Assembly: GCF_000153165.2 (NCBI RefSeq)
Contig: NC_014472.1
Coordinates: forward strand, 3,592,001-3,656,000
Length of the DNA stretch: 64,000 bases
Source: Maribacter sp. HTCC2170
Lineage (GTDB): Bacteria > Bacteroidota > Bacteroidia > Flavobacteriales > Flavobacteriaceae
Direction: 5' to 3'
The notes under the pieces are model-generated. The model had not been told where the DNA came from and searched no databases. It was given only the letters and a program-made list of their open reading frames with translations. The position numbers were made by a program, and so were the translations under genes. This document shows, piece after piece, positions 4,686 through 26,596 of the stretch; positions within the stretch are counted from its first letter, which is position 1; each line of letters begins with the position of its first letter.

Positions 4686-4759
4686 CAAAACTATTGTTAA
4701 TGACCTCTTAAATTCATGATAAATGTCAGGTTTTAAACAAAATTTTGAGAATAGTTTTG
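4686..4759. promoter_or_regulatory. Symmetric divergent promoter pair with one central Crp/Fnr-type operator
   Basis: The operator ATGATAAATGTCAG (4716-4729) is an imperfect copy of ATGACA-AA-TGTCAT. Its centre is 4722.5. The same -7 box TAGTTTTG occurs on both sides: minus strand at 4693-4686 (toward norC) and plus strand at 4752-4759 (toward the copper receptor operon). Each begins exactly 29.5 bp from the dyad centre, which places the operator near -41 of both promoters, the class II activator position. The half-site resembles the TTGAC-N4-GTCAA sites of NO-responsive DNR/NNR regulators. Confidence 0.75.
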
Positions 4760-4763
4760 TGGC

Positions 4764-5141
4764 GTGAAAAAACAGAGTTTAATCATATCTATACTCTTTT
4801 TGGTTCTGACTTTGACCAGCAGTCTAAAAATTGCTGGAACCATAGGATATTATGCCCTATTCACAGATGATTTTGTAGAACGTTTTTGTGAAAATAAAGA
4901 GCGTCCAGAATTAAACTGTGACGGTAAATGTGAGCTCTCCAAAATATTGTTGCAGGAATCAAATGATGATACTCCACCGATAAATCTTGACTTTTTGAAA
5001 ACTGAAACGATTTTGTTCCTTGAATCAAGAGTGGACTATGACTTTTCGATAATTACTGAAAATATTAACACCATTAACCAGTACACTAACCTCTACAATT
5101 TTCATCTACTAGAGAAAGAGTTTCAGCCACCCAGGGTTTAG
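4764..5141 (+). CDS. Small membrane-anchored Cys-containing protein upstream of copper TonB receptor
   Basis: 125 aa from a GTG start; no in-frame ATG lies near. One hydrophobic N-terminal helix (about 5-33) is followed by a conserved-looking FCENKERPELNCDGKCELSK segment with C42, C52 and C56. Similar small proteins with a Cys-Asn-Gly-Lys-Cys motif are common beside metal TonB receptors in Bacteroidetes; the function is not known to me. The Cys trio suggests metal binding on the periplasmic side (inference). The GTG lies only 5 nt after the -7 box, so the transcript may be leaderless. It precedes the copper receptor gene by 78 bp and is probably co-transcribed with it. Confidence 0.7.
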   Translation: MKKQSLIISILFLVLTLTSSLKIAGTIGYYALFTDDFVERFCENKERPELNCDGKCELSKILLQESNDDTPPINLDFLKTETILFLESRVDYDFSIITENINTINQYTNLYNFHLLEKEFQPPRV

Positions 5142-5219
5142 TACATTTTAGATTTCCAAACTGAGTCAATGTTTTACTTTGATTCAATCCTACACTATTT
5201 ATAACTTAAAGATTCAATA

Positions 5220-7514
5220 ATGAATTTAAAACATCTTTTGGTGGCCGTATGCATATTTACCGGTCACTTAATAAACGCACAGAATTTTAAAGGTCAAGTT
5301 TTAGACCATGAAAACAATCCAATTGAAGAAGCGCATATTACTGTAAACAATAAGGCTACAACCTATACAGATTCTAACGGTAATTTTGATTTAACTATTC
5401 CTGAAAAAGGAGCAAGCATTGCCATATCATATCTTGGCTATAAGACTTTTGAAGATTTCATTACCCCTCAAACAGAAAGAGCTTCATTTGTACTTGATGA
5501 GGCACCCATCAATATTTCTGGGGTAATGGTCACCGGAAACTCAAAAACCGATCCTGTTTTCACTGTCGAAACCAATGACTATGTGAAAAAGATTGTGCAA
5601 CCCAGAAATGTCGCTGATCTTTTTAACGATGTCAACGGGTTTTCATTAATAAAACGGGGTAATTATGCCAATGACCCTAGTTTTAGGGCTTCACAATATG
5701 AGCAATTGAACGTGCAATTTGATGGTGGCACTAAAGCTATGCACGCTTGCCCAAATCGAATGGATCCCGTTACCACACATGTTATCCCTGAGGAAATTGA
5801 AAAAATCGAAATTATCAAAGGACCATACACAGTACGTTATGGTGCCACCTTTGGAGGCATTGTTAATATGGTGACACAAGTCCCCGATGCCAGTGATTAT
5901 GGAATTCATGGTAGTGTACATGTAGGATACGAAAGTAACGGTGGTTCATTGGTTTCAATGGCACGTTTACAACAAGCTACTGAAAAATACGATATTACAG
6001 GGAATGTAGGTTTAAGGGATTTCGGCAATTACGAAGATGGAGATGGTACAGAAGTCCCATCCTCTTTCCGAAGTTTGGATTATGGAGTTAAAGTAGGTCT
6101 CAATTTTACGCCGAACCAACGATTACAAGCACATTGGAGGCAATCTTTTGGACGAGATGTACTTCACGCAGGATTACCAATGGATACCGATTTAGATGAT
6201 AGTAGTATTCTATCTCTGGATTATAAATTGACCGGATTAAACGGTACACTTAAGAACATTGATGCAAAACTCTATTATAGTTATGTGGATCATGTAATGA
6301 GCAATGCCAAAAGACCTAGTTTTATGATGACCGATGCCGTTTCCGCGATTAATGCCACCACTGCAGGCGGGAAAATCGAATTCAAACTAAAACCTTCTGA
6401 AAATTTCACCCTCTTTACAGGTATAGATGCCATGCATATTGGCAGGGATGGTGAACGTACCCGATTGGTGAAACGCAATATGATGGGGCCCTTACCTACT
6501 CCTATGGAATTTACTGATAAGGTTTGGCAAGATTCTTATATAAATGATATCGGTCTTTTTGCAGAAAGTAAATATCCATTGACTGACCATACTATTTTGA
6601 CTACAGGATTGCGCTATGATTTGGTTACTTCGAAAATAAAGGATCCTGCAGCAGATTTTCTTGCTTTATATCCGGATTTAGATAAAACAACCGAGCATAA
6701 TTTTAGTGGTACAGCATCAATAAAATACGCTCCCTCTACTGAGTTTATGATGGAATTGGCCTATGGAAGAGGAGTACGCTCAGCAAATATGATAGAACGT
6801 GTTATCAACCATTTTACAGTTGGTCAGGATTCTTATGAATATATTGGCAACCCTAATTTGGATGCAGAGGTCAACAACCAATTTGAAATAGGGTTCAAGG
6901 GAAAACTACCGTTTACCGATACATCTTCTGACCGATTTATTTATAGCTCATCTTTCTATTATTCGTTCTATGAGAACTATATAGTGGCCGTGATTGATGA
7001 AACACAAACACGTAAGTTTATGCCAATGGCCCAACCCAGAAATCCCAAGGTTTTCAGAAATTTAGATAAAGCTTATAAAACCGGTTTTGAAGTTGCTGCT
7101 GGGGTCGATTTTCTCAACAATTTCAATTTCACGACAGAATTGGCCTATGTATATGCTAAAAATAAGGATTTGAATGAATCCTTACCATTGGTACCTCCTC
7201 TGACCACCAGGTTTAAACTAGGATTCGAAAAGGAAAAGTTTTGGGTAAACGCCAACTATACCTTAACCTCAAAACAGGATAATATTTCGGAATCGTTTGG
7301 CGAAACACAGACGGCAGGATATGAAGTAATGGATATTAGATTGGGGGTTGTGCCCATTAAAAATCTTACATTGGGAGTAGCGGCATTAAATGTGTTTGAT
7401 GAAACCTATCACAACCACTTGAATTTTTCATTTAAAAACCAAGCTAATTTTAAAGCTGTACCAATCAATGATCCTGGTAGAAATTTATCTGCTTTTGTAC
7501 AGTACAAATTCTAG
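5220..7514 (+). CDS. TonB-dependent copper receptor (OprC/NosA-like)
   Basis: 764 aa: signal peptide (1-20), a carboxypeptidase-like CNA-B domain (about 23-95), plug (about 110-225) and a 22-strand barrel ending in ...AFVQYKF. The plug contains AMHACPNRMDP, with C177-x3-M181, the Cys/Met pattern of the Cu site in OprC-type receptors; a possible partner His/Met lies in LHAGLPMD. These receptors import copper across the outer membrane, and NosA is known to supply N2O reductase. Here the likely customer is NirK, encoded divergently from the same operator. Copper as the substrate is strongly suggested by the motif but not proven. Confidence 0.88.
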   Translation: MNLKHLLVAVCIFTGHLINAQNFKGQVLDHENNPIEEAHITVNNKATTYTDSNGNFDLTIPEKGASIAISYLGYKTFEDFITPQTERASFVLDEAPINISGVMVTGNSKTDPVFTVETNDYVKKIVQPRNVADLFNDVNGFSLIKRGNYANDPSFRASQYEQLNVQFDGGTKAMHACPNRMDPVTTHVIPEEIEKIEIIKGPYTVRYGATFGGIVNMVTQVPDASDYGIHGSVHVGYESNGGSLVSMARLQQATEKYDITGNVGLRDFGNYEDGDGTEVPSSFRSLDYGVKVGLNFTPNQRLQAHWRQSFGRDVLHAGLPMDTDLDDSSILSLDYKLTGLNGTLKNIDAKLYYSYVDHVMSNAKRPSFMMTDAVSAINATTAGGKIEFKLKPSENFTLFTGIDAMHIGRDGERTRLVKRNMMGPLPTPMEFTDKVWQDSYINDIGLFAESKYPLTDHTILTTGLRYDLVTSKIKDPAADFLALYPDLDKTTEHNFSGTASIKYAPSTEFMMELAYGRGVRSANMIERVINHFTVGQDSYEYIGNPNLDAEVNNQFEIGFKGKLPFTDTSSDRFIYSSSFYYSFYENYIVAVIDETQTRKFMPMAQPRNPKVFRNLDKAYKTGFEVAAGVDFLNNFNFTTELAYVYAKNKDLNESLPLVPPLTTRFKLGFEKEKFWVNANYTLTSKQDNISESFGETQTAGYEVMDIRLGVVPIKNLTLGVAALNVFDETYHNHLNFSFKNQANFKAVPINDPGRNLSAFVQYKF

Positions 7515-7535
7515 AAAAAAACTATAAAACAAATA

Positions 7536-7555
7536 AAGGGGGCAATAGCCCCCTT
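7536..7555. terminator. Bidirectional intrinsic terminator
   Basis: GGGGGC (7538-7543), loop AATA, GCCCCC (7548-7553), flanked by A-rich and T-rich sequence. It lies between the convergent copper receptor and FadL-type genes and can serve both. Confidence 0.8.
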
Positions 7556-7581
7556 ATTTATTATATCAATACTTGAATTAA

Positions 7582-8967
7582 TTATTGATTAAAAGTATAA
7601 CCAATACCAACCATGATCATCGACGTAGTCATTTCGTAGGAAACCGATGACCCAGGAACTGCACCTAGAGGATTGTTCGGAGAAGTCATCATCGGATTTA
7701 AGATTTTTCCTTCCGTTGCTCCATTACTATCTCCATAATGATAGACAGCATCTAGTTTCCAAGTGTTATTTACTTCATAACTTAATCCAAATTGATATGC
7801 ATTTTTAATTATTGCAGTTGCTGGAATATTAAAAAATGTCACTTCTTCCGGAATAGGGTTTGAGCTATAGGTATAACCAAAACGTAATGGTAATTTGTTT
7901 ATTCCCTTATACTGAAGCCCCGCTGATAAAATAGATATATTTTTCCATCCAAATCCAGCTACAGAAGCTGTTGGAGTCCATCCAGTTTCAGAAAAACCCT
8001 CTGTGTTTTCATAATCCACTCTTCTAAAATCAAGTGCTAAATCAACATCTCCTGCTGAGTAACCAAATCCAAGAGATAAAATAGCGGGGTAATCCATTTG
8101 AAAATTGTTTTTAGCAGTACTATTATCCAAATAAGTATTATCAAATTCAAATTCCCCAAATTTTTGAGCTGTTTTATAGGATGCCCCTAATTTTAATCCT
8201 AATCCAGAATCATAGAATAATCCAAATTGAGCTCCAAAACCAATTGCCGAAGCTTTATCTGCGGTTGGATAACCTGCCATTGTTGGATTTGCTGTTGGAT
8301 TAGGTGCTAATTCCAGTGCAGCATAATTAATATTTGGTTGAATTCCAAAAGAAAACTTATCAGACAATTCATAAGCATAGGACAAACCTACTTGTAATAA
8401 CATGTAATCAGATTCAATATGTCCAAAACCATTTAAACTTTGTGGCCAGTTAATTGGATTGGAATCTGTTGGATTCCAATTTGGATTAGGGTTACCACTT
8501 GTGTCCATAGGCAAATTGGCTTCCTGTGGAAAAGTAACACCAAAGCCACTTATACCAAATGCAGAAGCTCCAAACGTATGCTTACTCCCCTCTTTTCCCC
8601 AAACCATTGCTAATGCCGGCATTGGTGACATTCCTCTGTCATCCATGGTTGTACCATTAACTGCTGGTGAACCAGGTGCCCCTGGGCCAAAATCACCAGG
8701 TTGCCATAACATATTTGGAGGTAGGCTTGAGCTTAACTCTGGTGAAGAAAAGAATAAACCTACATCGAGTTTAATACTTTTACTGTCAAAAACAGAAAGT
8801 GCTGCTGGGTTCCATTGCATTGCACCGGAAATATCAAGAGGTTGGGCAGTCGCCGCTCCTCCCATTGACATATTAACAGCCCCAACACCTTGCATAATAT
8901 GACCAGACTGAGCTAAGACCGTTGTTGCAAAAAATAGAAACGATAAATTAAGAATTGTTTTTCTCAT
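7582..8967 (-). CDS. FadL/OmpP1-family outer-membrane channel
   Basis: 461 aa. Signal peptide to about residue 19 (VLAQ), then the family's N-terminal plug sequence: GHIMQGVGAVNMSMGGAATAQP and GAMQWNPAAL. The rest is beta-strand alternation ending in ...MIMVGIGYTFNQ. FadL-type channels carry hydrophobic molecules across the outer membrane. The natural substrate is unknown. Its promoter carries a perfect ATGACA-AA-TGTCAT operator at the same spacing as norC, so it seems to belong to the same NO/anaerobic regulon; that link is inference. Confidence 0.88.
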   Translation of the reverse strand: MRKTILNLSFLFFATTVLAQSGHIMQGVGAVNMSMGGAATAQPLDISGAMQWNPAALSVFDSKSIKLDVGLFFSSPELSSSLPPNMLWQPGDFGPGAPGSPAVNGTTMDDRGMSPMPALAMVWGKEGSKHTFGASAFGISGFGVTFPQEANLPMDTSGNPNPNWNPTDSNPINWPQSLNGFGHIESDYMLLQVGLSYAYELSDKFSFGIQPNINYAALELAPNPTANPTMAGYPTADKASAIGFGAQFGLFYDSGLGLKLGASYKTAQKFGEFEFDNTYLDNSTAKNNFQMDYPAILSLGFGYSAGDVDLALDFRRVDYENTEGFSETGWTPTASVAGFGWKNISILSAGLQYKGINKLPLRFGYTYSSNPIPEEVTFFNIPATAIIKNAYQFGLSYEVNNTWKLDAVYHYGDSNGATEGKILNPMMTSPNNPLGAVPGSSVSYEMTTSMIMVGIGYTFNQ

Positions 8968-9052
8968 GATTATTGAGTTTTAGTATTTTCAGTAGCTCGC
9001 ACTTCTAAATATCACAAGCTTCCTGCATAATTCATTGATTGTTTAAACACCT

Positions 9053-9096
9053 CAAAATTATTCCTGAAAAAAGTGAAGTTTCATGACAAATGTCAT
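9053..9096 (-). promoter_or_regulatory. fadL-type gene promoter with ATGACA-AA-TGTCAT operator
   Basis: Operator ATGACAAATGTCAT at 9083-9096 (6-bp perfect arms). The minus-strand -7 box TAATTTTG (9060-9053) starts 29.5 bp from the dyad centre, as in norC and sqr. The predicted start of transcription is about 80 nt upstream of the ATG at 8967. Confidence 0.75.
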
Positions 9097-9205
9097 TGAA
9101 AGTATTTTACTAGATCATTATCGCCTAGTCAACCAGTATTTATTGGTTAATAGCGTGGTTTTATTTTTGTAAATACTTGTTTTTCAATATTTTAAAAAAA
9201 TGTTT

Positions 9206-9223
9206 TTGTAACTTTTGTTACAA
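9206..9223 (+). promoter_or_regulatory. Upstream TTGTAAC-N4-GTTACAA operator of sqr
   Basis: TTGTAACTTTTGTTACAA, 7-bp perfect arms around a TTTT spacer. Its centre is 32 bp (three helical turns) upstream of the second operator at 9238-9255. It has no -7 box of its own at the usual spacing, so it probably acts as a second site for the sqr promoter. Confidence 0.65.
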
Positions 9224-9237
9224 TAAAGCACCTGTCA

Positions 9238-9283
9238 TTATGACAAATGTCATAAAATACGCCCCTCTTGCTTAATAATTTTA
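9238..9283 (+). promoter_or_regulatory. sqr promoter with ATGACA-AA-TGTCAT operator
   Basis: TTATGACAAATGTCATAA (9238-9255, 8-bp perfect arms) followed by the -7 box TAATTTTA (9276-9283), beginning 29.5 bp from the dyad centre. This is the best-conserved operator of its type in the window and lies in a class II activator position. Confidence 0.75.
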
Positions 9284-9340
9284 CACCTGAATAATTGAAG
9301 AAATGTTTCACAACTTGGTTCAATTCCAATAATTAACAAA

Positions 9341-10585
9341 ATGAAAAACTTAGTAATATTAGGAGCGGGTACTTCAGGAACGATGATGGCAAACCATTTG
9401 GTTAAAAAACTACAAAAAAAAGATTGGAAAATCACCATAGTAGATCAATACAAAACCCATTATTACCAACCAGGTTTCCTTTTTCTACCTTTTGATACAT
9501 ATACAGAGGATCAAGTAAAAAAGAAAGGTGGTAAATTCATTCCAAAAGGAGTAAATTATATTCAAAAAAAAATAGAACAAATTTTTCCAGAAGATAATAA
9601 AGTTGAACTCTCTGATGAAACGCTTGAGTATGATATTTTGATAGTCGCTACTGGTTCTAAAATTGCACCCGATGAAACAGAAGGCTTATTAGGCCCCCTT
9701 TGGCAAAAAGACATTTTTGATTTCTATACTTATGAAGGTGCTTTATCTCTTCGAAATAAACTACGGGAATGGGAAGGTGGTAAATTAGTGATTCATTTAA
9801 CTGAGATGCCTATAAAATGTCCAGTAGCACCATTGGAATTTGCTTTTCTTGCCGATTCCTATTTCCGGAAAAAAGGAATGAGGGACAAGGTAGAAATTAC
9901 ATATGTGACACCACTTTCAGGTGCATTCACAAAACCAACTTGTACCAAAGCGCTCAATTATCTTTTGGAAGAAAAACAAATCAATATTGAGATTGATTTT
10001 GCCATAGAACGTGTGGATAATGATAACAAAATGATTATTGACTATGCAGATAAAGAAATCCCTTTTGATTTATTAGTCACTATTCCAACAAATATGGGTG
10101 ATGAGGTTATTGAACGCTCGGGAATGGGGGATGATTTAAATTTTATTCCAACACACAAACATAGTTTGCAGTCAAAAGCCCATAAAAATGTTTTTGTAAT
10201 TGGTGATGCCACAAATGTACCTGCATCTAAAGCAGGTTCTGTAGCCCATTTTCAAGCAGAGACCCTGACTGACAATATTCTCCTTTACACTAAGGGATAT
10301 AAACTAAAGGAAGAATTTGATGGTCATGCGAATTGTTTCATAGAAACAGGTAACAACAAGGCATTGCTGATTGACTTTAACTATGATCAGGAACCAGTTC
10401 ACGGGACATTCCCTTTTGCCGGTATTGGACCACTAAAGTTATTAAAGGAAAGCGTTTTCAACCATTGGGGGAAACTTGCCTTTAGATGGGTTTATTGGAA
10501 TATGCTATTGAAAGGCATTGCAATACCTTTTGTCTCAAGGAACATGAGTTTCAAGGGTAAAAAGTTTGATATAAAAGCAGAATAG
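9341..10585 (+). CDS. Sulfide:quinone oxidoreductase-like FAD/NAD(P) oxidoreductase
   Basis: 414 aa. N-terminal dinucleotide fold (VILGAGTSGTMMANHL, residues about 4-19), a second FAD segment (DILIVATGSK) and the C-terminal FAD motif FVIGDATNVPASKAGSVAHFQAE as two parts. Cys residues at C160 (IKCPVAP), C201 and C332; C160 and C332 fit the redox-active pair of SQR enzymes. SQR oxidises sulfide to persulfide or polysulfide at the membrane and reduces quinone. TusE-like and DsrE2 genes follow at once, and a persulfide dioxygenase lies nearby, which supports a sulfur role over an ordinary type II NADH dehydrogenase. The promoter carries both operator types. The exact SQR type cannot be fixed by eye. 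Confidence 0.82.
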   Translation: MKNLVILGAGTSGTMMANHLVKKLQKKDWKITIVDQYKTHYYQPGFLFLPFDTYTEDQVKKKGGKFIPKGVNYIQKKIEQIFPEDNKVELSDETLEYDILIVATGSKIAPDETEGLLGPLWQKDIFDFYTYEGALSLRNKLREWEGGKLVIHLTEMPIKCPVAPLEFAFLADSYFRKKGMRDKVEITYVTPLSGAFTKPTCTKALNYLLEEKQINIEIDFAIERVDNDNKMIIDYADKEIPFDLLVTIPTNMGDEVIERSGMGDDLNFIPTHKHSLQSKAHKNVFVIGDATNVPASKAGSVAHFQAETLTDNILLYTKGYKLKEEFDGHANCFIETGNNKALLIDFNYDQEPVHGTFPFAGIGPLKLLKESVFNHWGKLAFRWVYWNMLLKGIAIPFVSRNMSFKGKKFDIKAE

Positions 10586-10616
10586 GAATAATTAATAACA
10601 AATAATTCAATACATA

Positions 10617-10925
10617 ATGAAAAAAGTAATAGCACAAACCGAAATAGATGTTAATGAAGAGGGATATATGACCGAATTCTCACAATGGAGCAAAGAAATA
10701 TGTGTATGTCTAGCCGATGAGCAAGATATTTGCATGACGGAAAAACATTGGGAAGTCATAGAATACATACATGAAAAACACAACAATGAAGAACCACTTT
10801 CTATTAGGGGTATCAAAAAAAGTGGTGTAATAAACATAAAAGAGTTTTATAGCTTATTTCCAGGTGGCCCACTTAAAAAGTCAACTTTAATCGCTGGGAT
10901 ACCAAAACCCAAAAGCTGTATTTAA
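10617..10925 (+). CDS. TusE/DsrC-family sulfur carrier protein
   Basis: 102 aa. Family signature: MTEKHWEVIEYIHEKH, PLSIRGIKKSG, LFPGGPLKKSTLIAGIPKP and the mobile C-terminal arm ending SCI, with the penultimate C101 (Cys A). The second arm Cys (Cys B) of true DsrC, about ten residues earlier, is absent, so this is TusE-like: it can carry one persulfide but cannot form the DsrC trisulfide. No dsrAB or tusBCD lies in the window. Located 31 bp after the SQR-like gene, so it probably receives sulfur made there, or passes it through DsrE2 (inference). Confidence 0.85.
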   Translation: MKKVIAQTEIDVNEEGYMTEFSQWSKEICVCLADEQDICMTEKHWEVIEYIHEKHNNEEPLSIRGIKKSGVINIKEFYSLFPGGPLKKSTLIAGIPKPKSCI

Positions 10926-10957
10926 TAACATTAAAAATCTTCACTAAAAATAAAATC

Positions 10958-11434
10958 ATGGGAAAGACCAAAGTAAAAAAAATGCTTTTCATACTTTCAA
11001 AAGCAACCATTGAAAATGCATATGCGGCTTTTGTAATGGCCAACGGGGCACGAATGGAAGGGATTGAATCAGAAATATTCTTTACATTTTTTGGATTGGA
11101 AGCCATTCAAAAGAAAAAATTGAATCATTTGCACGTTGCAACAGTGGGAAACCCTGCTATGCATATGCCAACCATGTTGGGTGGACTGCCAGGAGTTGAA
11201 GCCTTGGCAACGAAAATGATGAAAAAAGAAATGGAGAAATTAGATATGCCACCAATAGGAGAATTTCTTGAAATTCTCTCTGATTCTGGATGCAAACTTT
11301 GGGGTTGTAAATTGGCAGTAGATATGTTCCATCTTAAAAGAGAAGACCTAATTGATGAACTCGATGACATAATTACTATTGGAGATTTCTATAGCCGTGC
11401 AGATCAAGAAGGCACACATCTTCTTTTTATCTAA
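10958..11434 (+). CDS. DsrE/DsrF-like family (DsrE2-type) sulfurtransferase
   Basis: 158 aa. Opens with the DsrE fold strand KKMLFILSKATIENAYAAFVMANGA and has a hydrophobic segment around the MPTMLGGLPG region typical of DsrE2. The redox Cys pair SGCKLWGCKLAVDMF matches the CxxxxC position of this family. DsrE2-type proteins move persulfide sulfur to carriers such as TusA or DsrC. Third gene of the sqr-tusE-dsrE2 run, 32 bp after tusE, closed by a terminator. A short soluble or membrane-associated protein; its partner is probably the TusE-like protein next door. Confidence 0.82.
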   Translation: MGKTKVKKMLFILSKATIENAYAAFVMANGARMEGIESEIFFTFFGLEAIQKKKLNHLHVATVGNPAMHMPTMLGGLPGVEALATKMMKKEMEKLDMPPIGEFLEILSDSGCKLWGCKLAVDMFHLKREDLIDELDDIITIGDFYSRADQEGTHLLFI

Positions 11435-11460
11435 CCATAAACTTGAATTATTTATATAGA

Positions 11461-11490
11461 AAGGGGACTTGAAAGGTTCCCTTTTTTTTA
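11461..11490 (+). terminator. Intrinsic terminator after dsrE2
   Basis: AAGGGGACT pairs with GGTTCCCTT (two G-T wobbles and no bulge), followed by an eight-T run. It ends the sqr-tusE-dsrE2 transcript. Confidence 0.75.
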
Positions 11491-11736
11491 TTTCAAAAAC
11501 ATCTTTTAAGCGCTAAACTGTTCTTTTATTTTACAGATATTCCATTTTAATAAAACTAGGATTCAATTGTATTCTTTATTTACGTTCATGATTAATTGCT
11601 TAGGTCCCAATTTTTTAGGCTTAATAACCAAAAAACTTTTGGCATGATATAAAAAGATGATTGGTTCGATGAATATATACTTTCAAAACAAGCATTATTT
11701 TAAGAAAAAGAAATAACGAATGGTATTTGGGAATAA

Positions 11737-11862
11737 ATTCAAATCCTAGCCGAGTTTAAAAACAATGATACCTATCATACTGCGAAAACGACTAATTATT
11801 TATCTTTAGGATTAAGTGTAACTTTTGTTACAGACCACAAAATCAAAAAATACTTATTTTAG
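11737..11862 (+). pseudogene. Possible C-terminal remnant of an outer-membrane beta-barrel gene
   Basis: An open frame of 41 codons without a start, ending TAG. It encodes ...AKTTNYLSLGLSVTF followed by a short basic tail. YLSLGLSVTF has the alternating pattern and final Phe of a last barrel strand. The same frame continues upstream as EITNGIWE before a TAA at 11734-11736. The rest of the gene is absent. Low confidence, since short AT-rich frames can look like this by chance. Confidence 0.3.
11817..11862 (+). promoter_or_regulatory. Sulfite dehydrogenase promoter with TGTAAC-N4-GTTACA operator
   Basis: TGTAACTTTTGTTACA at 11817-11832, the same core and spacer as the sqr upstream site. A weak -7 box TATTTTAG starts at 11855, 30.5 bp from the dyad centre, one base off the spacing seen elsewhere. 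The ATG is at 11888. Confidence 0.65.
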
Positions 11863-11887
11863 AAGATTATGAACTTCAACCCTTAAA

Positions 11888-13108
11888 ATGAAAAGACGAA
11901 ATTTTGTTAAAAAAGCAGTTTTAGGTACCATGACTTCTGTAATTGGTACCGAAATTGTTTTTGGAAATGTATTACCAAAAGGTTATCAACCATTGGCTCT
12001 ACAAGATCCTAACCCTTTCAAGATGTTCAATAAGGATGGGGAAATGGTTGTCTTAAATGACAAACCCTGGAATATTGAGGCCAAGGCCCATTTGCTGGAT
12101 GATAAAATTACTCCCAATAAATATATGTTCATACGAAACAATGGTATTATTCCGGAAGACATAGATGTGGATAATTGGACGTTGACTTTTGATGGTGAAT
12201 CTGTAAAACAATCTAAAAGTTATACCCTAAAAGAGCTTAAATCAAAATTCAAGCAACATACTTACCAATTAACTTTGGAATGTGGTGGCAATGGGCGGAG
12301 TGAATATGACCCACCTGCAAAAGGCAACCAATGGACCATTGGCGCTGTTTCTTGTGCGACTTGGACCGGTGTTAGATTACGTGATATTCTTGAGGATGTA
12401 GGTATAAAAAATGATGCAGTTTACATCGGATACCATGCAGCGGATGTTCATTTGAGTAGAGATCCCAAAAAAGAGCCAATTTCCCGTGGTGCCCCAATGG
12501 CAAAAATCATGCAAGATGAAACCTTAATTGCGTTTAAAATGAACGGTGAGGATATTCCATTGGCACATGGTTATCCACTACGATTGGTTGCAGGAGGATG
12601 GCCTGCCTCTGTTTCAGGAAAATGGGTCAATAGAATCAGTGTAAGAAATAAGGTTCATGATGGTACCAAAATGACAGGCACTGCATACAGAGTTCCATGT
12701 AATCCCGTAGCGCCAGGCGAAAAGGTAAAAGATGAAGATATGTGCATAATTGAATCTATGCCTGTAAAATCATTGATTACCTATCCAAAGACTGGAGCAA
12801 CTATTAAAGAAAATCAAAAATTGAATATTCGCGGTCATGCTTGGGCAGGTGAACTTGAAGTTTCTAATATGGAATACTCAATTGATTTTGGCTCTACTTG
12901 GACAAATTGTTCAATTGAAAAACCAAAGAACAGGCTAGCATGGCAACATTTTTCTGCTAGTATTTCATTTCCTAAAAAAGGATATTATGAAGTTTGGGCG
13001 AGAGCCACAGATTCGCAAGGAAAGAGTCAACCAATGCTCTTACCGGGTTGGAACCCTAAAGGGTACCTCAACAACGCTTGTCATCGAATTGCCATCAAGC
13101 TAGCATAA
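11888..13108 (+). CDS. Molybdopterin-dependent sulfite dehydrogenase catalytic subunit (SorA/SoxC-like)
   Basis: 406 aa. N-terminal twin-arginine-like signal (MKRRNFVKKAVLG), then the sulfite oxidase Moco domain with the Mo-ligating Cys C132 in TLECGGNGRSEY, followed by AVSCATWTGVRLRDIL and HGYPLRLVAGGWPASVSGKW. The C-terminal dimerisation domain (about 290-405) has the YSIDFGSTW and WARATDSQGKSQP strands. It oxidises sulfite to sulfate in the periplasm and hands electrons to the cytochrome gene that begins 2 bp after its stop codon. Its promoter has the TGTAAC operator. SorA versus SoxC cannot be told by eye; no soxYZ, soxAX or soxB is present, which favours SorA-type use. Confidence 0.9.
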   Translation: MKRRNFVKKAVLGTMTSVIGTEIVFGNVLPKGYQPLALQDPNPFKMFNKDGEMVVLNDKPWNIEAKAHLLDDKITPNKYMFIRNNGIIPEDIDVDNWTLTFDGESVKQSKSYTLKELKSKFKQHTYQLTLECGGNGRSEYDPPAKGNQWTIGAVSCATWTGVRLRDILEDVGIKNDAVYIGYHAADVHLSRDPKKEPISRGAPMAKIMQDETLIAFKMNGEDIPLAHGYPLRLVAGGWPASVSGKWVNRISVRNKVHDGTKMTGTAYRVPCNPVAPGEKVKDEDMCIIESMPVKSLITYPKTGATIKENQKLNIRGHAWAGELEVSNMEYSIDFGSTWTNCSIEKPKNRLAWQHFSASISFPKKGYYEVWARATDSQGKSQPMLLPGWNPKGYLNNACHRIAIKLA

Positions 13109-13110
13109 GT

Positions 13111-13587
13111 ATGGAAGATCATAGCAAATTCAAACAACAGGTCAAGGCAATTTATACAATGCTACTTGGTGTCTTTGGTCTTTTTGCCATCGCTGCCTTT
13201 ACCATTATATACCTAGTTTCAAATCCTGATGTATTTAAAAAATCAAAACCTGAAGTTGAATATGCTGCTGTTCCTATTGTAGAAGACAACTATGATAAAA
13301 TAGAAAACGGAATACACATTCGTACGGGTTTGGTTGAAGCCGAAGGCCTTATGGCCGTGGTTAACAATTGTACCAACTGCCATTCTGCAAAATTAGTCAC
13401 CCAAAATAGAATGAACAAAGAGCGATGGATAAGCACAATTCGTTGGATGCAAGAAACACAAAATCTTTGGGATTTAGGGCCAAATGAAGATATCATCGTA
13501 AACTATCTAGTTACCAATTATCCTGCAGCCAAAAAGGGACGCAGAGAAGTATTTAGAAATGTGGATTGGTATATACTCGAAGAATAG
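13111..13587 (+). CDS. Sulfite dehydrogenase cytochrome c subunit
   Basis: 158 aa from the ATG at 13111, just after the catalytic subunit's stop codon; a longer in-frame start at 13078 would overlap that gene by 31 bp and is not preferred. One N-terminal transmembrane helix (about 14-36) anchors a periplasmic domain with heme motif C87-T-N-C-H91. The short helical C-terminal half (WISTIRWMQETQNLWDLG) resembles SorB-type cytochromes. Its likely job is to take electrons from sulfite oxidation and pass them to the respiratory chain. Confidence 0.87.
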   Translation: MEDHSKFKQQVKAIYTMLLGVFGLFAIAAFTIIYLVSNPDVFKKSKPEVEYAAVPIVEDNYDKIENGIHIRTGLVEAEGLMAVVNNCTNCHSAKLVTQNRMNKERWISTIRWMQETQNLWDLGPNEDIIVNYLVTNYPAAKKGRREVFRNVDWYILEE

Positions 13588-13623
13588 AATAAATACATTT
13601 TTATAAATTTAAATCGTTTTGAA

Positions 13624-14505
13624 ATGGAAAAATATTTAGATGCTTTCGTCAACTCATTTATGGGTAGCGTGGACTGGACTTGGAAGTCAATACTTTTTGA
13701 TGTGCCGTGGTACACTAATTACTTCTGGGGGCTCACGGTCATTTCATTGATCGTATGGGGTCTTGAAATTGCCTTTCCTTGGAGAAAAAACCAATCCGTC
13801 TTTAGAAAGGATTTTTGGTTGGATGGTTTTTATATGTATTTCAACTTCTTCCTTTTTGCGATTGCCGTTAGTGGTTTCTACAAATTGTTGGGATTACTTT
13901 TCAATGATATAGGCATTTCTTCAAAGAGCCTTACCCTATTGGACCTTTCTTCTTTGCCGTCATGGGCCCAATTGGTAATTTTCTTTATTATTCTTGACTT
14001 TGTACAATGGTTTACCCATGTCTTGCTTCATAAGTATGCTTTCTTATGGAAATTTCATAAAGTACATCATTCTGTCAAAGAAATGGGGTTTGCAGCTCAT
14101 TTGCGTTATCACTGGATGGAAAACATCATCTATAAGCCACTAAAAACTTTGGGCGTAATGATTTTAGGCGGTTTTGAACCAGAACAGGCTTATATCGTTC
14201 ATTTTATTGCAATTTCAATCGGTCATTTAAACCATGCCAATATTAAATTGACCTGGGGACCTTTGAAGTATATTTTGAACAATCCCGTTATGCATTTGTA
14301 TCATCATGCATATGTGCTTCCTAAAGGATCCTACGGTATTAACTTCGGAATCAGTCTAAGTCTGTGGGATTACATATTTAAAACAAATCACGTACCTGAA
14401 GATAGTGGAACGATTGAACTTGGCTTTCCGGGTGATGATGATTTTCCGCAAGATTTTATCCATCAAAATATCTATGGATTTGGTAAATCTAAAAAGAACG
14501 GATAA
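13624..14505 (+). CDS. Sterol desaturase/fatty acid hydroxylase family membrane protein
   Basis: 293 aa with about four transmembrane segments. Di-iron His boxes: HVLLHKY, HKVHHS and HLYHHAY, plus HLRYH between them. The family uses O2 to hydroxylate or desaturate lipids. It follows the sulfite dehydrogenase cytochrome by 36 bp on the same strand and may be co-transcribed. Such proteins often occur beside sulfite oxidase-type genes in flavobacteria in my experience of annotation, but the lipid substrate is unknown and no sulfur role is shown. Confidence 0.87.
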   Translation: MEKYLDAFVNSFMGSVDWTWKSILFDVPWYTNYFWGLTVISLIVWGLEIAFPWRKNQSVFRKDFWLDGFYMYFNFFLFAIAVSGFYKLLGLLFNDIGISSKSLTLLDLSSLPSWAQLVIFFIILDFVQWFTHVLLHKYAFLWKFHKVHHSVKEMGFAAHLRYHWMENIIYKPLKTLGVMILGGFEPEQAYIVHFIAISIGHLNHANIKLTWGPLKYILNNPVMHLYHHAYVLPKGSYGINFGISLSLWDYIFKTNHVPEDSGTIELGFPGDDDFPQDFIHQNIYGFGKSKKNG

Positions 14506-14516
14506 ATTAAATAAGC

Positions 14517-15817: not shown

Positions 15818-15862
15818 AAACTAATTCTTTTTCTTTAACCTTCTTTAGTTTTAATATCAACC

Positions 15863-16207: not shown

Positions 16208-16303
16208 ATTTCTATATTTTAATTTTTGCTTGGTCTTTGGAGAACGGCCATTTTTTGAAAACAGTCGTTCCCCAAATATCCAAGTTAAACAACAACTCCT
16301 ACT

Positions 16304-17719
16304 TTATAACATCGTAGTAGGACAAACGTAATCTGTTCTATCTATATTGGTTTTGGAAATTCCTGCGTACCCTTCGGTTACATCAACAAAATCATCCCAG
16401 CCTCTTTGTTTTAATATAGAGGCAGCGATCATACTTCGGAAACCACCGGCGCAATAAACCACAAAAGGAACTTCTTTCGGAAATTCTTGTAAATGCTTAT
16501 TTATTTCATTTAAAGGAATATTGATAGAACCTTTTACATGTTCAGAATCATACTCACTTTTCTTTCGCACATCAAAGACCAAGGGCATTTCGGCATGATA
16601 CGCTTTTGCGTAAACATCTGAAGTAATCCTTGCAATCGTTTCAAACCTTTTTTTCGAGCCTTTCCAATTTTTAAAACCACCTTTTAAGAATCCTATCGTA
16701 TGATCATAACCTACCCTTGACAATCTTGTCATGGCCTCTTCTTCTTTATCAGGATAGGTAATAAGAAGTATTTCTTGTTTAACATCGGGTATCATTTCAC
16801 CAACCCATTGTGCGAAATTGCCGTTTAATCCTATATTAATGCTATTAGGGACATATCCTTTAGCAAAGTCATCGGGGTTTCGAGTATCCAACATCAAAGC
16901 ACCTGTTTCATTTGCAGCTATTTCAAAAGCTTCAGGAGACAGCGGTTTTTGGCCTCTTTCAATTATCGCATCCAAGCTTTCATAGCCAGATATATTCATC
17001 AACACATTTTGAGGAAAATAACCTGGAGGGGCTGTTAGGCCAGTAAGAAGTTCTTTTATGAACTCGTCCTTGGTCATATCTGCTCGCAAGGCATAATTCA
17101 CTTTTTTCTGATGCCCAAGTGTATCGGTGGTTTCCTTACTCATCATTTTTCCACAAGCAGAACCTGCGCCATGATTCGGATAAACAATCAACTTGTCATC
17201 CAATGGCATGATCTTGTTACGCAGCGAGTCGAACAAATGGCCAGCCAACTTTTCTTCCGTTAATTCAGAAACCACATGCTGTGCTAAATCTGGTCTACCC
17301 ACATCACCAATAAATAAGGTGTCACCTGTAATAATGCCATGCTGTTTATCATTCTCATCGATTAACAAATATGTTGTGCTCTCCATGGTATGACCAGGTG
17401 TATGCAGCACTTTTATTTTATAATCCCCTAGCTCAAATATTTGATTGTCCTCAGCAATAAGGGCATCATAATTTGGGTTAGCTGTTGGGCCGAATACTAT
17501 CTGAGCACCTGTTTTTTTCTTAAGATCCAGATGACCACTCACAAAATCAGCGTGAAAATGGGTTTCAAAAACGTATTTAACTTTGGCATTATCCTTATTG
17601 GCCCTATCAATATAAGGCTGAACCTCTCGTAATGGATCAAAGATGGCAGCTTCGCCTTTGCTCTCGATATAATAGGCTGCATGGGCCAAACATCCCGTAT
17701 ATATTTGTTCAATTCTCAT
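16304..17719 (-). CDS. Persulfide dioxygenase-rhodanese fusion (CstB-like)
   Basis: 471 aa from the ATG at 17719. N-terminal metallo-beta-lactamase domain (1 to about 235) with the ETHE1-like iron motif T-H54-F-H56-A-D58-F-V-S-G-H63, HTPGHT and GDTLFIGDVGRPDL. Then a rhodanese-like domain with no active Cys (LLITYPDKEEE at that place) and an active rhodanese (VVYC423AGGFRS). This MBL-pseudo-rhodanese-rhodanese order is that of CstB, which oxidises low-molecular-weight persulfides to thiosulfate or sulfite. A longer start at 17782 would run through the operator at 17775-17790, so it is rejected. First gene of a four-gene operon. Confidence 0.9.
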   Translation of the reverse strand: MRIEQIYTGCLAHAAYYIESKGEAAIFDPLREVQPYIDRANKDNAKVKYVFETHFHADFVSGHLDLKKKTGAQIVFGPTANPNYDALIAEDNQIFELGDYKIKVLHTPGHTMESTTYLLIDENDKQHGIITGDTLFIGDVGRPDLAQHVVSELTEEKLAGHLFDSLRNKIMPLDDKLIVYPNHGAGSACGKMMSKETTDTLGHQKKVNYALRADMTKDEFIKELLTGLTAPPGYFPQNVLMNISGYESLDAIIERGQKPLSPEAFEIAANETGALMLDTRNPDDFAKGYVPNSINIGLNGNFAQWVGEMIPDVKQEILLITYPDKEEEAMTRLSRVGYDHTIGFLKGGFKNWKGSKKRFETIARITSDVYAKAYHAEMPLVFDVRKKSEYDSEHVKGSINIPLNEINKHLQEFPKEVPFVVYCAGGFRSMIAASILKQRGWDDFVDVTEGYAGISKTNIDRTDYVCPTTML

Positions 17720-17745
17720 TGTAAAATGACTGTAAAATTTAACTG

Positions 17746-17790
17746 TAAAATTATGCTCGTTTTGGTTACCATAAAGTAACATTGGTTACA
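17746..17790 (-). promoter_or_regulatory. cstB operon promoter with GTAAC-N4-GTTAC operator
   Basis: AGTAACATTGGTTACA at 17775-17790 (arms GTAAC/GTTAC; the outer bases differ). The minus-strand -7 box TAATTTTA (17753-17746) begins 29.5 bp from the dyad centre and is identical to the sqr box. Confidence 0.72.
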
Positions 17791-17809
17791 AAGTTCAGCG
17801 TTTTACCAA

Positions 17810-17835
17810 CAAAAAAGACTGATAAATATCAGTCT
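17810..17835 (-). terminator. Intrinsic terminator of the Crp/Fnr gene
   Basis: AGACTGAT (17816-17823), AAAT, ATCAGTCT (17828-17835); on the minus strand it is followed by six T. It separates the regulator from the cstB operator. Confidence 0.8.
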
Positions 17836-17893
17836 CTTAGCTATTAAGTAGAATACACTATCAAAAATCTTTAAAATGCTGATTTATAGGTAA

Positions 17894-18526
17894 TTAATTT
17901 GCAATAAGTTTTATCTGGTTTCTATGCAGTTCTATCCTGCCTAAGTTCTCCAATTTCTTAAGTAATCGGGAGACTACAACTCTGGAGGTATGCAACTCAT
18001 AAGCTATATGTTGATGAGTAGTGGTAATAGTATTATCATTATTTACACGAGCTTTGTCTTTAAGGTATTTGAGGAGTCTTTCATCCATTTTCATAAATGC
18101 AATGCTATCAACGGTCTCCAACAATTCATTTAACCTATTGTGATAACTCTGTAAAACAAAATTTCGCCAGCTGCTATATTTGGCAAGCCATTCTTCCATT
18201 TTTTGAACAGGGACCATGATCAATTTGGTATCGGTTTCTGCCAAGGCCCTAATCTCACTTTTAGTGTGCCCCATACAACAGGTAAGCGTCATTGCACAGG
18301 TGTCCCCATGTTCAAGAAAATACAACAACAGCTCATCACCTTCACCATCTTCACGAAGTACTTTAATTACCCCCGAAATCAATAATGGCATCGACTTTAC
18401 ATAATCACCTATTTCCATAAGTTTATGCCCTTCATGAATCTCTTTAACGGTTCCTGTTTCAATTATTTCAGAAATCAATTCTTCCTCTAAAAGGTGTCCG
18501 TAATTCTCTTGTAATTCCTTTAGCAT
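17894..18526 (-). CDS. Crp/Fnr-family transcriptional regulator with Cys-rich effector region
   Basis: 210 aa from the ATG at 18526 (a TTG at 18538 is in frame). N-terminal cyclic-nucleotide-like beta-roll, dimer helix (about 115-140) and C-terminal winged helix with HTH THQHIAYELHTSRVVVSRLLKK. Three Cys, C77, C83 and C84 (DTCAMTLTCCMGH), lie where CRP has its effector-binding cassette, so a thiol, metal or persulfide signal is plausible instead of cAMP. No Fnr-type N-terminal Cys cluster. It is the only Crp/Fnr protein in the window and abuts the cstB operon, which makes it the best candidate for the TGTAAC-N4-GTTACA sites. A -7 box TACATTTG lies upstream. Confidence 0.9.
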   Translation of the reverse strand: MLKELQENYGHLLEEELISEIIETGTVKEIHEGHKLMEIGDYVKSMPLLISGVIKVLREDGEGDELLLYFLEHGDTCAMTLTCCMGHTKSEIRALAETDTKLIMVPVQKMEEWLAKYSSWRNFVLQSYHNRLNELLETVDSIAFMKMDERLLKYLKDKARVNNDNTITTTHQHIAYELHTSRVVVSRLLKKLENLGRIELHRNQIKLIAN

Positions 18527-18561
18527 AATAAGCGTCAATGTTGGTTGTAAGATATACTACT

Positions 18562-18571
18562 CAAATGTAAC
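18562..18571 (-). promoter_or_regulatory. -7 box of the Crp/Fnr gene overlapping a TGTAAC half-site
   Basis: On the minus strand TACATTTG (18569-18562) fits TAnnTTTG. A single TGTAAC half-site (plus strand 18566-18571) overlaps it; no second half-site is present, so autoregulation is only a possibility. Confidence 0.4.
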
Positions 18572-18687
18572 CCATTTTTAGTATAAAACCGATAAAGGTA
18601 ATTAGTTTTAAATCCTATTATTGTTTAGTTTTATTTCGTATTCCGTAGAATTGTAAGAACCAATCAAAATATTTTGTATTGAACAAT

Positions 18688-24860
<6,173 letters not shown>

Positions 24861-24861
24861 A

Positions 24862-26364
24862 TCAATCAACAAACCAGCTTTTGACCAACTGCTGCTCGTT
24901 AAAGTTACCATCAACGTGTTCAAACTCGTTCTTGATTATATTTTGATTATAATCCTTGCCCCACGCTTCAAAATTTGAAGCAACTTGTTTAATCGCATCA
25001 CAGATAAAATCAACTTCTTGATCTGTGGTTGTGGGGTGAATTGACATTCGCACCCACCCTGGTCTTTCCATTAAACAACCATCTAAAATCTTCTGCTCTA
25101 TTGCCTTTGAGGTCAGTTCATTCACGTGAAGTAAAAAATGTCCATAGGTCCCTGCGCATGAACAACCTCCCCTTGTTTGAATTCCAAAACGGTCATTCAA
25201 TAATTTAACCACAAGATTATAATGCGCATCATCAATATAAAAAGAAAAAATGCCCAATCTATTCTTGTGTTCTCCGGCCAGAATATGAAGATTTTTAATC
25301 TCGACAAGACTTTCAAAAACCCTTGTATTTATTTCATCCTCTCGATCATGAATGTTTTTCACGCCCATTTGTTCCTTGAGCTGTATGGCAAAGGCTGTTC
25401 GAATAGCTTGGATAAATCCAGGAGTACCACCATCTTCACGCGTTTCAATATCATCAATATAATCATGATTCCCCCATGGGTTCGTATACGTAACCGTGCC
25501 TCCACCAGGGTTATCGGGAACAAGGTTCTTATATAATTTTTTATTGAAAACCAAAACACCACAGGCACCGGGCCCTCCTAAAAACTTATGTGGAGAAAAG
25601 AAAATAGCATCTAGATATTCATCTTCATTTCCAGGGTGCATATCAATATTTACATAGGGTGCAGAACATGCAAAATCAACAAAACAAAGCCCGTTGTTTT
25701 GATGTATCATCTTGGCAATCCTATGGTAATCTGTTCTAATCCCAGTAACATTTGAACAAGCTGTAATTGAAGCTATTTTAATTGGACTGTCCTTATACTT
25801 GTCCAATAAGTTTTTGAAGCTTTTAAAACAAATCAATCCCGTTTCATCGCAAGGAATTACTTCAACTCTGGCAATGGTTTCTAACCATGAGGTTTGATTG
25901 GAGTGATGCTCCATATGTGATACAAAAACAATTGGTCTTAAATCTTCTGGTATTCTGGTATGTTCCTTTAGGTTTTCTGTGACCTTCAACCCCAAGATTC
26001 GTTGAAACTTGTTAACAGCACCGGTCATACCCGTACCAACAGTAATTAGCACATCGTCCTCGTTTGCATTTACATGTTCCTTTATCTTTTTTCTAGCTTT
26101 ATGATATGCCATGGTCATGGCAGAGCCAGTAAATGAAGTCTCAGTATGTGTATTGGCCACATAAGGACCTATCTCCTTTAATAATTTCTCTTCTATAGGT
26201 CCATATAATCTACCACTGGCGGTCCAATCGGCATATATAATATTTTGTTCTCCATAAGGAGATTTAAAAGTGTGATCAATACCAACAATATGCTTTCTAA
26301 ATTGCTCAAAATACAATTCCAATTCAGTTGCTTGTACTTTTCGATTAGATAATGATAATCCCAT
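24862..26364 (-). CDS. Class V aminotransferase / cysteine desulfurase-like protein
   Basis: 500 aa from the ATG at 26364 (a TTG at 26382 is also in frame). PLP fold type I: TGTGMTGAVNKFQ, VFVSHMEHHSNQTSW and the Lys of FFSPHKFLGGPGACG. A Cys-bearing loop RGGCSCAGTYGHF lies where cysteine desulfurases hold the active Cys. So a sulfur- or selenium-lyase reaction is possible, but many proteins of this length in the group have no assigned substrate. The stop codon abuts that of the beta-galactosidase on the other strand. Confidence 0.8.
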   Translation of the reverse strand: MGLSLSNRKVQATELELYFEQFRKHIVGIDHTFKSPYGEQNIIYADWTASGRLYGPIEEKLLKEIGPYVANTHTETSFTGSAMTMAYHKARKKIKEHVNANEDDVLITVGTGMTGAVNKFQRILGLKVTENLKEHTRIPEDLRPIVFVSHMEHHSNQTSWLETIARVEVIPCDETGLICFKSFKNLLDKYKDSPIKIASITACSNVTGIRTDYHRIAKMIHQNNGLCFVDFACSAPYVNIDMHPGNEDEYLDAIFFSPHKFLGGPGACGVLVFNKKLYKNLVPDNPGGGTVTYTNPWGNHDYIDDIETREDGGTPGFIQAIRTAFAIQLKEQMGVKNIHDREDEINTRVFESLVEIKNLHILAGEHKNRLGIFSFYIDDAHYNLVVKLLNDRFGIQTRGGCSCAGTYGHFLLHVNELTSKAIEQKILDGCLMERPGWVRMSIHPTTTDQEVDFICDAIKQVASNFEAWGKDYNQNIIKNEFEHVDGNFNEQQLVKSWFVD

Positions 26365-26551
26365 ACGACCTTTTGTTATCAATTAATTAAACCATTTTCA
26401 AATATAAATCAATGGTATTGAAATAAATATAATAAAACAGGATAATACCCATCTTAAGTCAAAATCTGGTCTTGCTAAAAGCTTTGCTATACCTAATATT
26501 ATCTCTCAATCTGATGTAAAAACGTGCTTATGAAGTGTTATGATTTTCCAG

Positions 26552-26596
26552 TGTAACAATTGTTACATAAAAAGAAATGGAATTCCTTTAATATTA
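26552..26596 (+). promoter_or_regulatory. Orphan membrane protein promoter with TGTAACAATTGTTACA operator
   Basis: TGTAACAATTGTTACA (26552-26567) is a perfect 16-bp palindrome. The -7 box TAATATTA (26589-26596) starts 29.5 bp from the dyad centre. The ATG is 51 bp after the operator. Confidence 0.68.

Follow-up and report, generated by a model that had tools for sequence, protein, structure and literature searches.

The locus considered here, a window of 64,000 nucleotides (the whole stretch of DNA that was analysed, positions 3592001–3656000 of the one contig of 3,868,304 bases searched as the genome of Maribacter sp. HTCC2170), raises the question of why seven of its promoters carry two related palindromes at one fixed distance from a promoter box, and which proteins read them. 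An earlier note on this DNA had assigned the seven to a single shared Crp/Fnr regulon. Its two related operators and their fixed register have held up; the single regulon has given way to two regulons that overlap on some promoters. The best explanation, which we consider probable, is that two Crp/Fnr-type activators would act at their own dyads centred at −41.5, one with a recognition helix of the form R-V..R on GTAAC dyads of sulfur genes, the other with a T-E..R helix on ATGAC dyads of low-oxygen genes, and that both would act at the promoter of sqr, the gene for a sulfide:quinone reductase (SQR).

In all seven window promoters the distance from the dyad centre to the first T of a TAnnTTT-like box is 29.5 bp. 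The box is perfect at norC, at the promoter divergent from it, at fadL, at sqr (measured from its ATGAC-class, or A-type, dyad) and at cstB; in the two others, those of sorA and of an orphan membrane protein, it has one mismatch. A single A-type dyad (TCATGATAAATGTCAGGT, 4714–4731) is common to norC-norB-nirK on the minus strand and to open reading frame (ORF) 4764 and a TonB copper-type receptor on the plus strand; it stands at 29.5 bp from each of two −7-like boxes, both TAGTTTTG (4686–4693, minus strand, for norC; 4752–4759, plus strand, with a predicted +1 at 4764), and the same layout is present in a relative (L184). The FadL/OMPP1 gene (7582–8967) has an A-type dyad at 9081–9098 and the box TAATTTTG at 9053–9060 on the minus strand. 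At sqr the proximal A-type dyad TTATGACAAATGTCATAA (9238–9255) is in register with the box TAATTTTA (9276–9283, plus strand), and a GTAAC-class, or G-type, dyad TTGTAACTTTTGTTACAA (9206–9223) lies 32 bp further upstream, 61.5 bp from the box; both are exact matches to the 18-mer. The gene for a CstB-like persulfide dioxygenase-rhodanese (16304–17719) is preceded by the G-type dyad TTGTAACCAATGTTACTT in the minus-strand reading (17774–17791), with the box TAATTTTA at 17746–17753 on the minus strand, and the orphan gene for a DUF4386-like membrane protein (26619–27301) by the G-type dyad GTGTAACAATTGTTACAT (26551–26568), with the box TAATATTA (26589–26596, plus strand; TAATATT). The G-type dyad GTGTAACTTTTGTTACAG of the sulfite dehydrogenase gene sorA (11888–13108) occupies 11816–11833, and its box has one mismatch at either 29.5 bp (TTATTTT) or 30.5 bp (TATTTTA). 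The earlier note had placed six promoters at 29.5 and the seventh at 30.5; the 29.5 register stands, and the 30.5 register of sorA was rejected, as it is not kept in relatives. As that note had also stated, the two classes differ at half-site positions −7 and −5, which are positions 3 and 5 of the 18-mer (seventh and fifth when counted outward from the centre). A possible extra A-type dyad upstream of sorA (ATGATACCTATCAT, 11765–11778, with TATCTTTA at 29.5 bp, 11801–11808) is uncertain, since no counterpart is visible in four relatives.

The register is also seen across the genome. The exact 18-mer TTRTRACN4GTYAYAA occurs at only two places in 3.87 Mb, both within the sqr promoter. The pattern ATGAYN4RTCAT occurs at 55 places, of which 53 were examined, sites inside ORFs of 110 amino acids or more being counted as intragenic. 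A perfect TAnnTTT at exactly 29.5 bp accompanies 16 of 31 intergenic sites and none of the 22 intragenic ones. Over 30 of these intergenic sites, all but that at 372255, 18 site-strands have a box at 29.5 compared with a mean of 0.26 over 47 other offsets (Poisson tail 4e-27). The earlier note had held that motif and box pairs scattered at chance level over the genome would count against it; the pairs are not at chance level. As at the norC dyad, the sites 1110274 and 2345304 are each flanked to left and right by a perfect box at 29.5. Sites in register precede genes for nap (1101388), PPDK (2573717), methylmalonyl-CoA epimerase/carboxyltransferase (2429920), 2-oxoacid oxidoreductase (2054027), an Rrf2 regulator and a cytochrome c (1110274), Usp (3494057) and HPF (3504591). 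The targets of the ATGAC class include cbb3, nap, Usp/HPF, PPDK and 2-oxoacid oxidoreductase besides the nir/nor promoters.

The GTAAC class is much rarer, with 10 occurrences of GTAACN4GTTAC in the genome, 6 of them beside sulfur genes. Within the window these are at sqr, sorA, cstB and the orphan gene. Outside it, sites with perfect boxes are found 8 kb left of the window at a gene for outer-membrane efflux (3583568) and upstream of a periplasmic-looking rhodanese (2153342); the latter was scored as intragenic in the register count because of an overlapping frame of 120 amino acids. Two more are at a double rhodanese (2859787) and at a cluster (2866877) that joins molybdopterin oxidoreductase/NrfD genes to rhodanese genes and one for a sulfur transporter, with a Crp paralogue between the two places, and the remaining two are at nap (1101451) and PPDK (2573745). 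A role of the GTAAC class in sulfur metabolism, as predicted from the genes beside its sites, is supported by these targets. Both operator classes are present in four promoters: sqr, with 32 bp between the dyads, 2866845/2866877 (32 bp), 2573717/2573745 (28 bp) and nap (63 bp). A second sulfur cluster (L062, 6596–16836), with GTAAC sites within it and at its edge, groups a porin gene and four genes of rhodanese type with those for NrfD, a Crp paralogue, a molybdopterin oxidoreductase and a sulfur transporter of the YeeE type.

Genome counts as such were not taken as evidence. The reversed-pattern control often exceeds the real palindromic pattern (195 real vs 506 control, 313 vs 571, 65 vs 169, and 10 vs 25 for GTAACN4GTTAC), and for ATGAYN4RTCAT the relation is the opposite (55 vs 18). 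Since reversing a palindromic pattern gives a control of different composition, the evidence was drawn from the box register.

Conservation among relatives points in the same direction. From 564 relatives 80 sqr-bearing loci were obtained, and 79 upstream regions were used, one of fewer than 150 bases being left out. Of the 79, 39 have an A-type and 67 a G-type site that matches at least 11 of 14 letters, and 35 of 46 perfect boxes downstream of the A-type sites are at 29.5. By a looser criterion, a score of 9 together with a perfect box at 29.5, the site in register is A-type in 60 promoters and G-type in 10, and 9 have none. A site in register is thus kept in 70 of 79, whereas 100 mononucleotide shuffles averaged 1.67 loci and never exceeded 5. 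Permuted motifs gave means of 3.8 and 3.6 loci, with some permutations reaching 42, 33 and 30; as the high-scoring permutations resemble the motifs, no formal p value is drawn from this control. One A-type and one G-type site are kept together at sqr in 50 of 79 relatives. In the 55 regions with both, the distance upstream from the A-type to the G-type dyad is 22 bp in 23, 26–28 in 15, 31–32 in 9, 35–38 in 3, and falls elsewhere in 5.

The other window promoters are conserved to different degrees. In 15 of 29 relatives fadL is preceded by an A-type site that matches at least 11 letters and has its perfect box at 29.5, and cstB has a G-type site with such a box in 7 of 10. In 4 of 4 relatives sorA has a G-type dyad 61–63 bp ahead of its start codon, without such a box. 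Homologues of the orphan gene were present in 13 of 32 genomes searched, and each of the 13 shows a G-type dyad of at least 11 letters followed, at exactly 29.5, by a sequence like the box; one of these boxes is a perfect TAnnTTT and ten are TAnnTTG. The TAnnTTG boxes of these relatives (L306–L318) resemble the SM5 promoter class of Flavobacterium psychrophilum, for which a box TAnnTTGY is reported in the available part of PMC9723704. Owing to this resemblance and to the 29.5 register, a Crp/Fnr site may here be combined with a non-standard form of sigma.

Why the distance should be 29.5 bp has a simple answer. The TAnnTTTG box of F. psychrophilum spans −12 to −5, according to the same portion of that source (PMC9723704). 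With the first T of the box at −12 and a distance of 29.5, the dyad centre would be at −41.5 of the predicted starts, which is the class II position of Crp/Fnr proteins; this placement is carried over from the F. psychrophilum box. In NtcA promoters GTAN8TAC is at −41.5, 22 nt from a TA-type box, as given in the accessible text of PMC3898017, and in Maribacter sp. HTCC2170 the distance from the TAC of the dyad to the box is likewise 22 nt. The arrangement that characterizes class II promoters, a Crp-type palindrome and a box at constant spacing, is found in the seven window promoters and in the genome-wide peak at 29.5. The fixed spacing is explained by ordinary class II Crp/Fnr architecture and needs no special explanation.

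Five proteins in the genome exceed the HTH_Crp_2 cut-off. The window encodes one of them, the Crp/Fnr regulator P0002 (17894–18526, minus strand), with the helix HTSRVVVSRLL and the cysteines Cys81 and Cys88, a candidate reader of the GTAAC class. Two paralogues are 49% and 41% identical to it, and the helices of the three are TSRVVVSR, TSRVCVSR and TSRVVVTR. The other two proteins are an FNR-like protein (L098) with TATESAIR and a receiver-cNMP-HTH hybrid with MATETLIR. TSRVV[IV]SR is kept in P0002 and in 30 of 30 homologues fetched, 11 of which have a G-type site with a perfect 29.5 box within 1.5 kb, outside ORFs. FNR-like homologues with E below 1e-60 are found in 22 of 32 genomes; the equivalents of E181 and R185 are present in all 22 and in the genome's own protein, and T180 in 21 of 22. 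In the available portion of their study, Rodionov et al. (2005, PMC1274295) reported a correlation of residues R180 and E181 with the bases that are recognized: loss of R180 is accompanied by loss of the G at the third position, loss of E181 goes with GTAAC, and HcpR2, in which residue 181 is Pro, recognizes GTAACnnnnGTTAC. By this rule an R-V helix would read GTAAC and a T-E helix ATGAC (not G, then G). The existence of two regulator classes whose helices differ at the residues expected to read the two differing bases is thus supported, as judged from the protein sequences. The two paralogous regulators proposed in the earlier note survive in this form, with helices that fit the bases and a sulfur role assigned to one by its targets (6 of 10). 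For the ATGAC sites it had proposed an NNR/DNR-like regulator for nitric oxide (NO); their likely reader is closer to FNR (1.8e-23 in a comparison with PDB, vs 1.3e-8 for DNR), and the sites of this class extend beyond nir/nor.

The cysteines of these proteins suggest what they may sense. Cys81 is present in all 31 sequences (P0002 and its homologues) and Cys88 in 26 of 31, and both are found in both paralogues. In Lutibacter homologues (L263–L266) Cys81 is kept, and Cys87/88 is replaced by a nearby cysteine (NGKC). In view of the conserved cysteines and the sulfur targets, one may guess that P0002 is a thiol-based persulfide sensor. In the FNR-like protein C9, C12, C58 and C111 are invariant in 23 of 23, and all but C58, which lies elsewhere, align with ligands of FNR. 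With four invariant cysteines, three at ligand positions, this protein is likely to sense oxygen through an iron-sulfur cluster. Its gene is divergent from a ccoI-type ATPase gene and a ccoNO fusion, and ATGAYN4RTCAT is found near it in 13 of 22 homologues and in Maribacter sp. HTCC2170. The hybrid, of 353 amino acids (3494103 region; L204 8094–10396), follows a gene for a PAS histidine kinase; its surroundings are rich in Usp genes and ATGAC sites, and homologues of about 350 amino acids are present in most of 32 relatives.

From the computed sites, register, enrichment in genome and relatives, and helices we infer the pairing of proteins with sites, activation, and the signals. Each activator would use its own dyad, centred 41.5 bp upstream of the start, for class II activation. 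The R-V..R regulators, P0002 and its two paralogues, whose genes lie at 2859967–2860587 and 2875369–2875986, would bind GTAAC-N4-GTTAC and switch on sqr, cstB, sorA, the rhodaneses and the molybdopterin oxidoreductase cluster, that is, the handling of sulfide, persulfide and sulfite. The T-E..R regulators, the FNR-like protein beside ccoI-ccoNO and/or the receiver-Crp hybrid beside the PAS histidine kinase, would bind ATGAC-N4-GTCAT and switch on low-oxygen genes such as nir/nor, nap, cbb3 and Usp. At sqr and a few other promoters with both dyads, ATGAC at −41.5 would drive the promoter, and GTAAC 22–38 bp further up would add sulfur control. The class of the sqr operator in register tends to go with the presence of the FNR-like protein: it is A-type in 20 and G-type in none of the 22 genomes with the protein, and A-type in 4 and G-type in 6 of the 10 without it (Fisher 0.005, ancestry ignored).

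Several observations weigh against two activators with fixed dyads. The dyad common to norC and its divergent neighbour has only 9 of 14 consensus letters. The sorA box is imperfect and is not kept in 4 relatives, and the orphan box is imperfect in this genome. No perfect box at 29.5 is found at 14 of 30 intergenic ATGAC sites; among sites without one, those of nrdJ (1802465) and cardiolipin synthase (3482267) have it at 30.5, and those of PEPCK (941360) and the FNR/ccoI intergenic region (1084521) have an imperfect box only. Just 3 of 10 GTAAC sites have a perfect box at 29.5. The exchange of A-type for G-type at sqr is confounded by shared ancestry, since 5 of 6 G-type cases are relatives of Salinimicrobium, Salegentibacter and Christiangramia; the sixth, Gillisia limnaea, also carries a weaker A-type site. 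Four genomes without the FNR-like protein keep the A-type site, and whole-genome counts of ATGACN4GTCAT separate weakly (78 vs 34 for the control in ten genomes with the protein, 54 vs 38 in ten without). In the window the 18-mer was found 7 times at two mismatches or fewer compared with 4.39 expected, and 14 of 100 shuffles reached 7; motif statistics from the window alone were dropped as evidence. Evidence that the observation exceeds chance comes from the remainder of the genome and from relatives, through the rarity of the 18-mer, the box register and conservation.

The alternatives differ in who reads which dyad. If one regulator read both, the classes being affinity variants, the common TT-T-AC flanks and register and the occurrence of both classes in some promoters would follow; but the GTAAC class is rare and biased to sulfur and the ATGAC class broad, the genome has both helix classes, which fit the two bases, and one of each operator at sqr in 50 of 79 relatives would be needless for a single reader, so that this view seems very improbable. 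That the ATGAC class is read chiefly by the receiver-Crp hybrid, after its phosphorylation by the PAS histidine kinase encoded next to it, instead of by the FNR-like protein, is a possibility to be kept in mind, though we doubt it. The helix of the hybrid, ATET-IR, is suitable, ATGAC sites at 3494057, 3496484, 3498752 and 3504591 are nearby, beside Usp, HPF and DnaJ genes, and L141, L145 and L167, which have an A-type sqr site without the FNR-like protein, have hybrids with ATES-IR. The Salinimicrobium/Salegentibacter group, however, has hybrids (ASET-IR) and yet a G-type sqr site, and the FNR-like gene has its own upstream ATGAC site here and in 13 of 22 homologues.

The GTAAC class could also be an HcpR-type regulon responding to NO or nitrite. 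The HcpR2 consensus in the available part of PMC1274295 is identical letter for letter, GTAACnnnnGTTAC, and 1 of 10 GTAAC sites is at nap. The same part of that source gives Pro at 181 in HcpR2, compared with Val in 31 of 31 here; moreover, 6 of 10 genomic GTAAC sites adjoin sulfur genes and the nir-nor promoter has no GTAAC site, all of which makes an HcpR-type regulon improbable. Finally, the upstream GTAAC dyad at sqr might repress or compete and not add activation, as its distances of 22, 26–28, 31–32 and 35–38 bp among relatives have no single helical phase, an unusual property for a class I activator. In cstB and in the sqr promoters with G-type sites only, the same dyad takes the activating position of class II and has a perfect box, and repression or competition is considered unlikely. 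Two activators, each with its own dyad class, remain the preferred reading.

Beyond this reading, a broader and tentative proposal can be made for the Flavobacteriaceae. A Crp/Fnr subfamily on GTAN8TAC may be a master sulfane-sulfur switch that senses persulfide by Cys81 and a second nearby cysteine and is wired with an FNR-like oxygen switch, with rearranged cysteines, at dual-operator promoters; the −41.5 slot of sqr may have passed from the oxygen to the sulfur operator in a lineage that lost the FNR-like protein. The promoter architecture and the helix code are already known. Apparently new are the sulfur-gene Crp group with an invariant cysteine, the dual-operator sqr promoters, and a clade in which the proximal operator at −41.5 has changed class. 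The searches made of open-licence PMC listings, several of them narrow, brought up no account of these operators or of a flavobacterial regulator of sulfide oxidation, nor of a sulfur regulator of the Crp/Fnr type in Flavobacteriia. Marine sediments and blooms are rich in flavobacteria, and the promoter plan is common to nearly all sqr-bearing genomes examined. If the proposal is true, it would provide a readable two-letter operator code and a candidate sulfur sensor of the Crp/Fnr type. Low-oxygen and sulfur targets would then be listed genome-wide for a phylum in which few regulons are known, and sqr would offer a natural example of a promoter passed from one activator to its paralogue.

The genes of the window are arranged as follows. 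At the left end are a Cu-type nirK, a norB-like COX1 protein, a norC-like cytochrome, a small ORF and the TonB copper-type receptor. Further to the right are FadL/OMPP1, sqr-dsrC-dsrE2 (9341–11434, plus strand; type III SQR, dsrC/tusE-like and dsrE2-like genes), sorA-sorB, a cytochrome c/Tll0287 protein, a rhodanese, the CstB-like protein with metallo-beta-lactamase and rhodanese domains, the Crp/Fnr regulator and the orphan. SQR shares 92% identity with a protein of a Maribacter metagenome-assembled genome, and P0002 86% with its counterpart in Maribacter arenosus. SQR (9341–10585) is recognized by the NCBIfam model of type III SQR of the selenoprotein subtype, yet its frame is open without a TGA. 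If the box at 4752 is at −12, the predicted start of the plus-strand transcript (near 4752–4766) is the GTG of ORF 4764–5141, and the message would be leaderless.

Among known systems, NtcA of cyanobacteria has the same helix, R-V-x-V-(S/T)-R, alignable with P0002, and the same operator, GTAN8TAC; P0002, however, scores 39.4 bits against a family cut-off of 244.95, and has conserved cysteines and sulfur-gene targets. The HcpR2 branch of Clostridia, Bacteroides and others has the same operator consensus (GTAACnnnnGTTAC), but in the accessible text of PMC1274295 its common form has Pro at position 181, where Val is found here, and its target is hcp, compared with sqr, cstB, sor and rhodanese genes here, no search having been aimed at hcp. 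With 39.4 of 244.95 bits and Val at 181, P0002 was rejected as a member of NtcA or HcpR. A comparison of P0002 with solved structures at E up to 10 gave 48 sequences and no chain named HcpR, HcpR orthologues not having been searched for otherwise.

The FNR-like protein aligns with FNR over its length, with a matching C-x2-C, later Cys, and helix Glu and Arg, and has low-oxygen targets. It differs in the full C-x2-C-x5-C plus later Cys of FNR: C9, C12 and C111 align, the third position is Asn, and C58 is invariant instead. The helix has Thr where FNR has Val. The FNR operator is TTGAT, compared with ATGAC here. DNR/NnrR has in common the denitrification genes among the ATGAC targets, but its match is weaker (1.3e-8 vs 1.8e-23 for FNR) and the targets here are far broader. 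SqrR, CstR and FisR likewise control sqr and persulfide dioxygenase genes; they belong to protein families other than Crp/Fnr. The phrase Crp Fnr is absent from the 12 listed of 39 open-licence PMC matches on such regulators. The closest parallel in architecture is with class II Crp/Fnr promoters in general, which have the same dyad at what would be −41.5; those described here differ in the Bacteroidota TAnnTTT box and in their sulfur and anaerobic targets.

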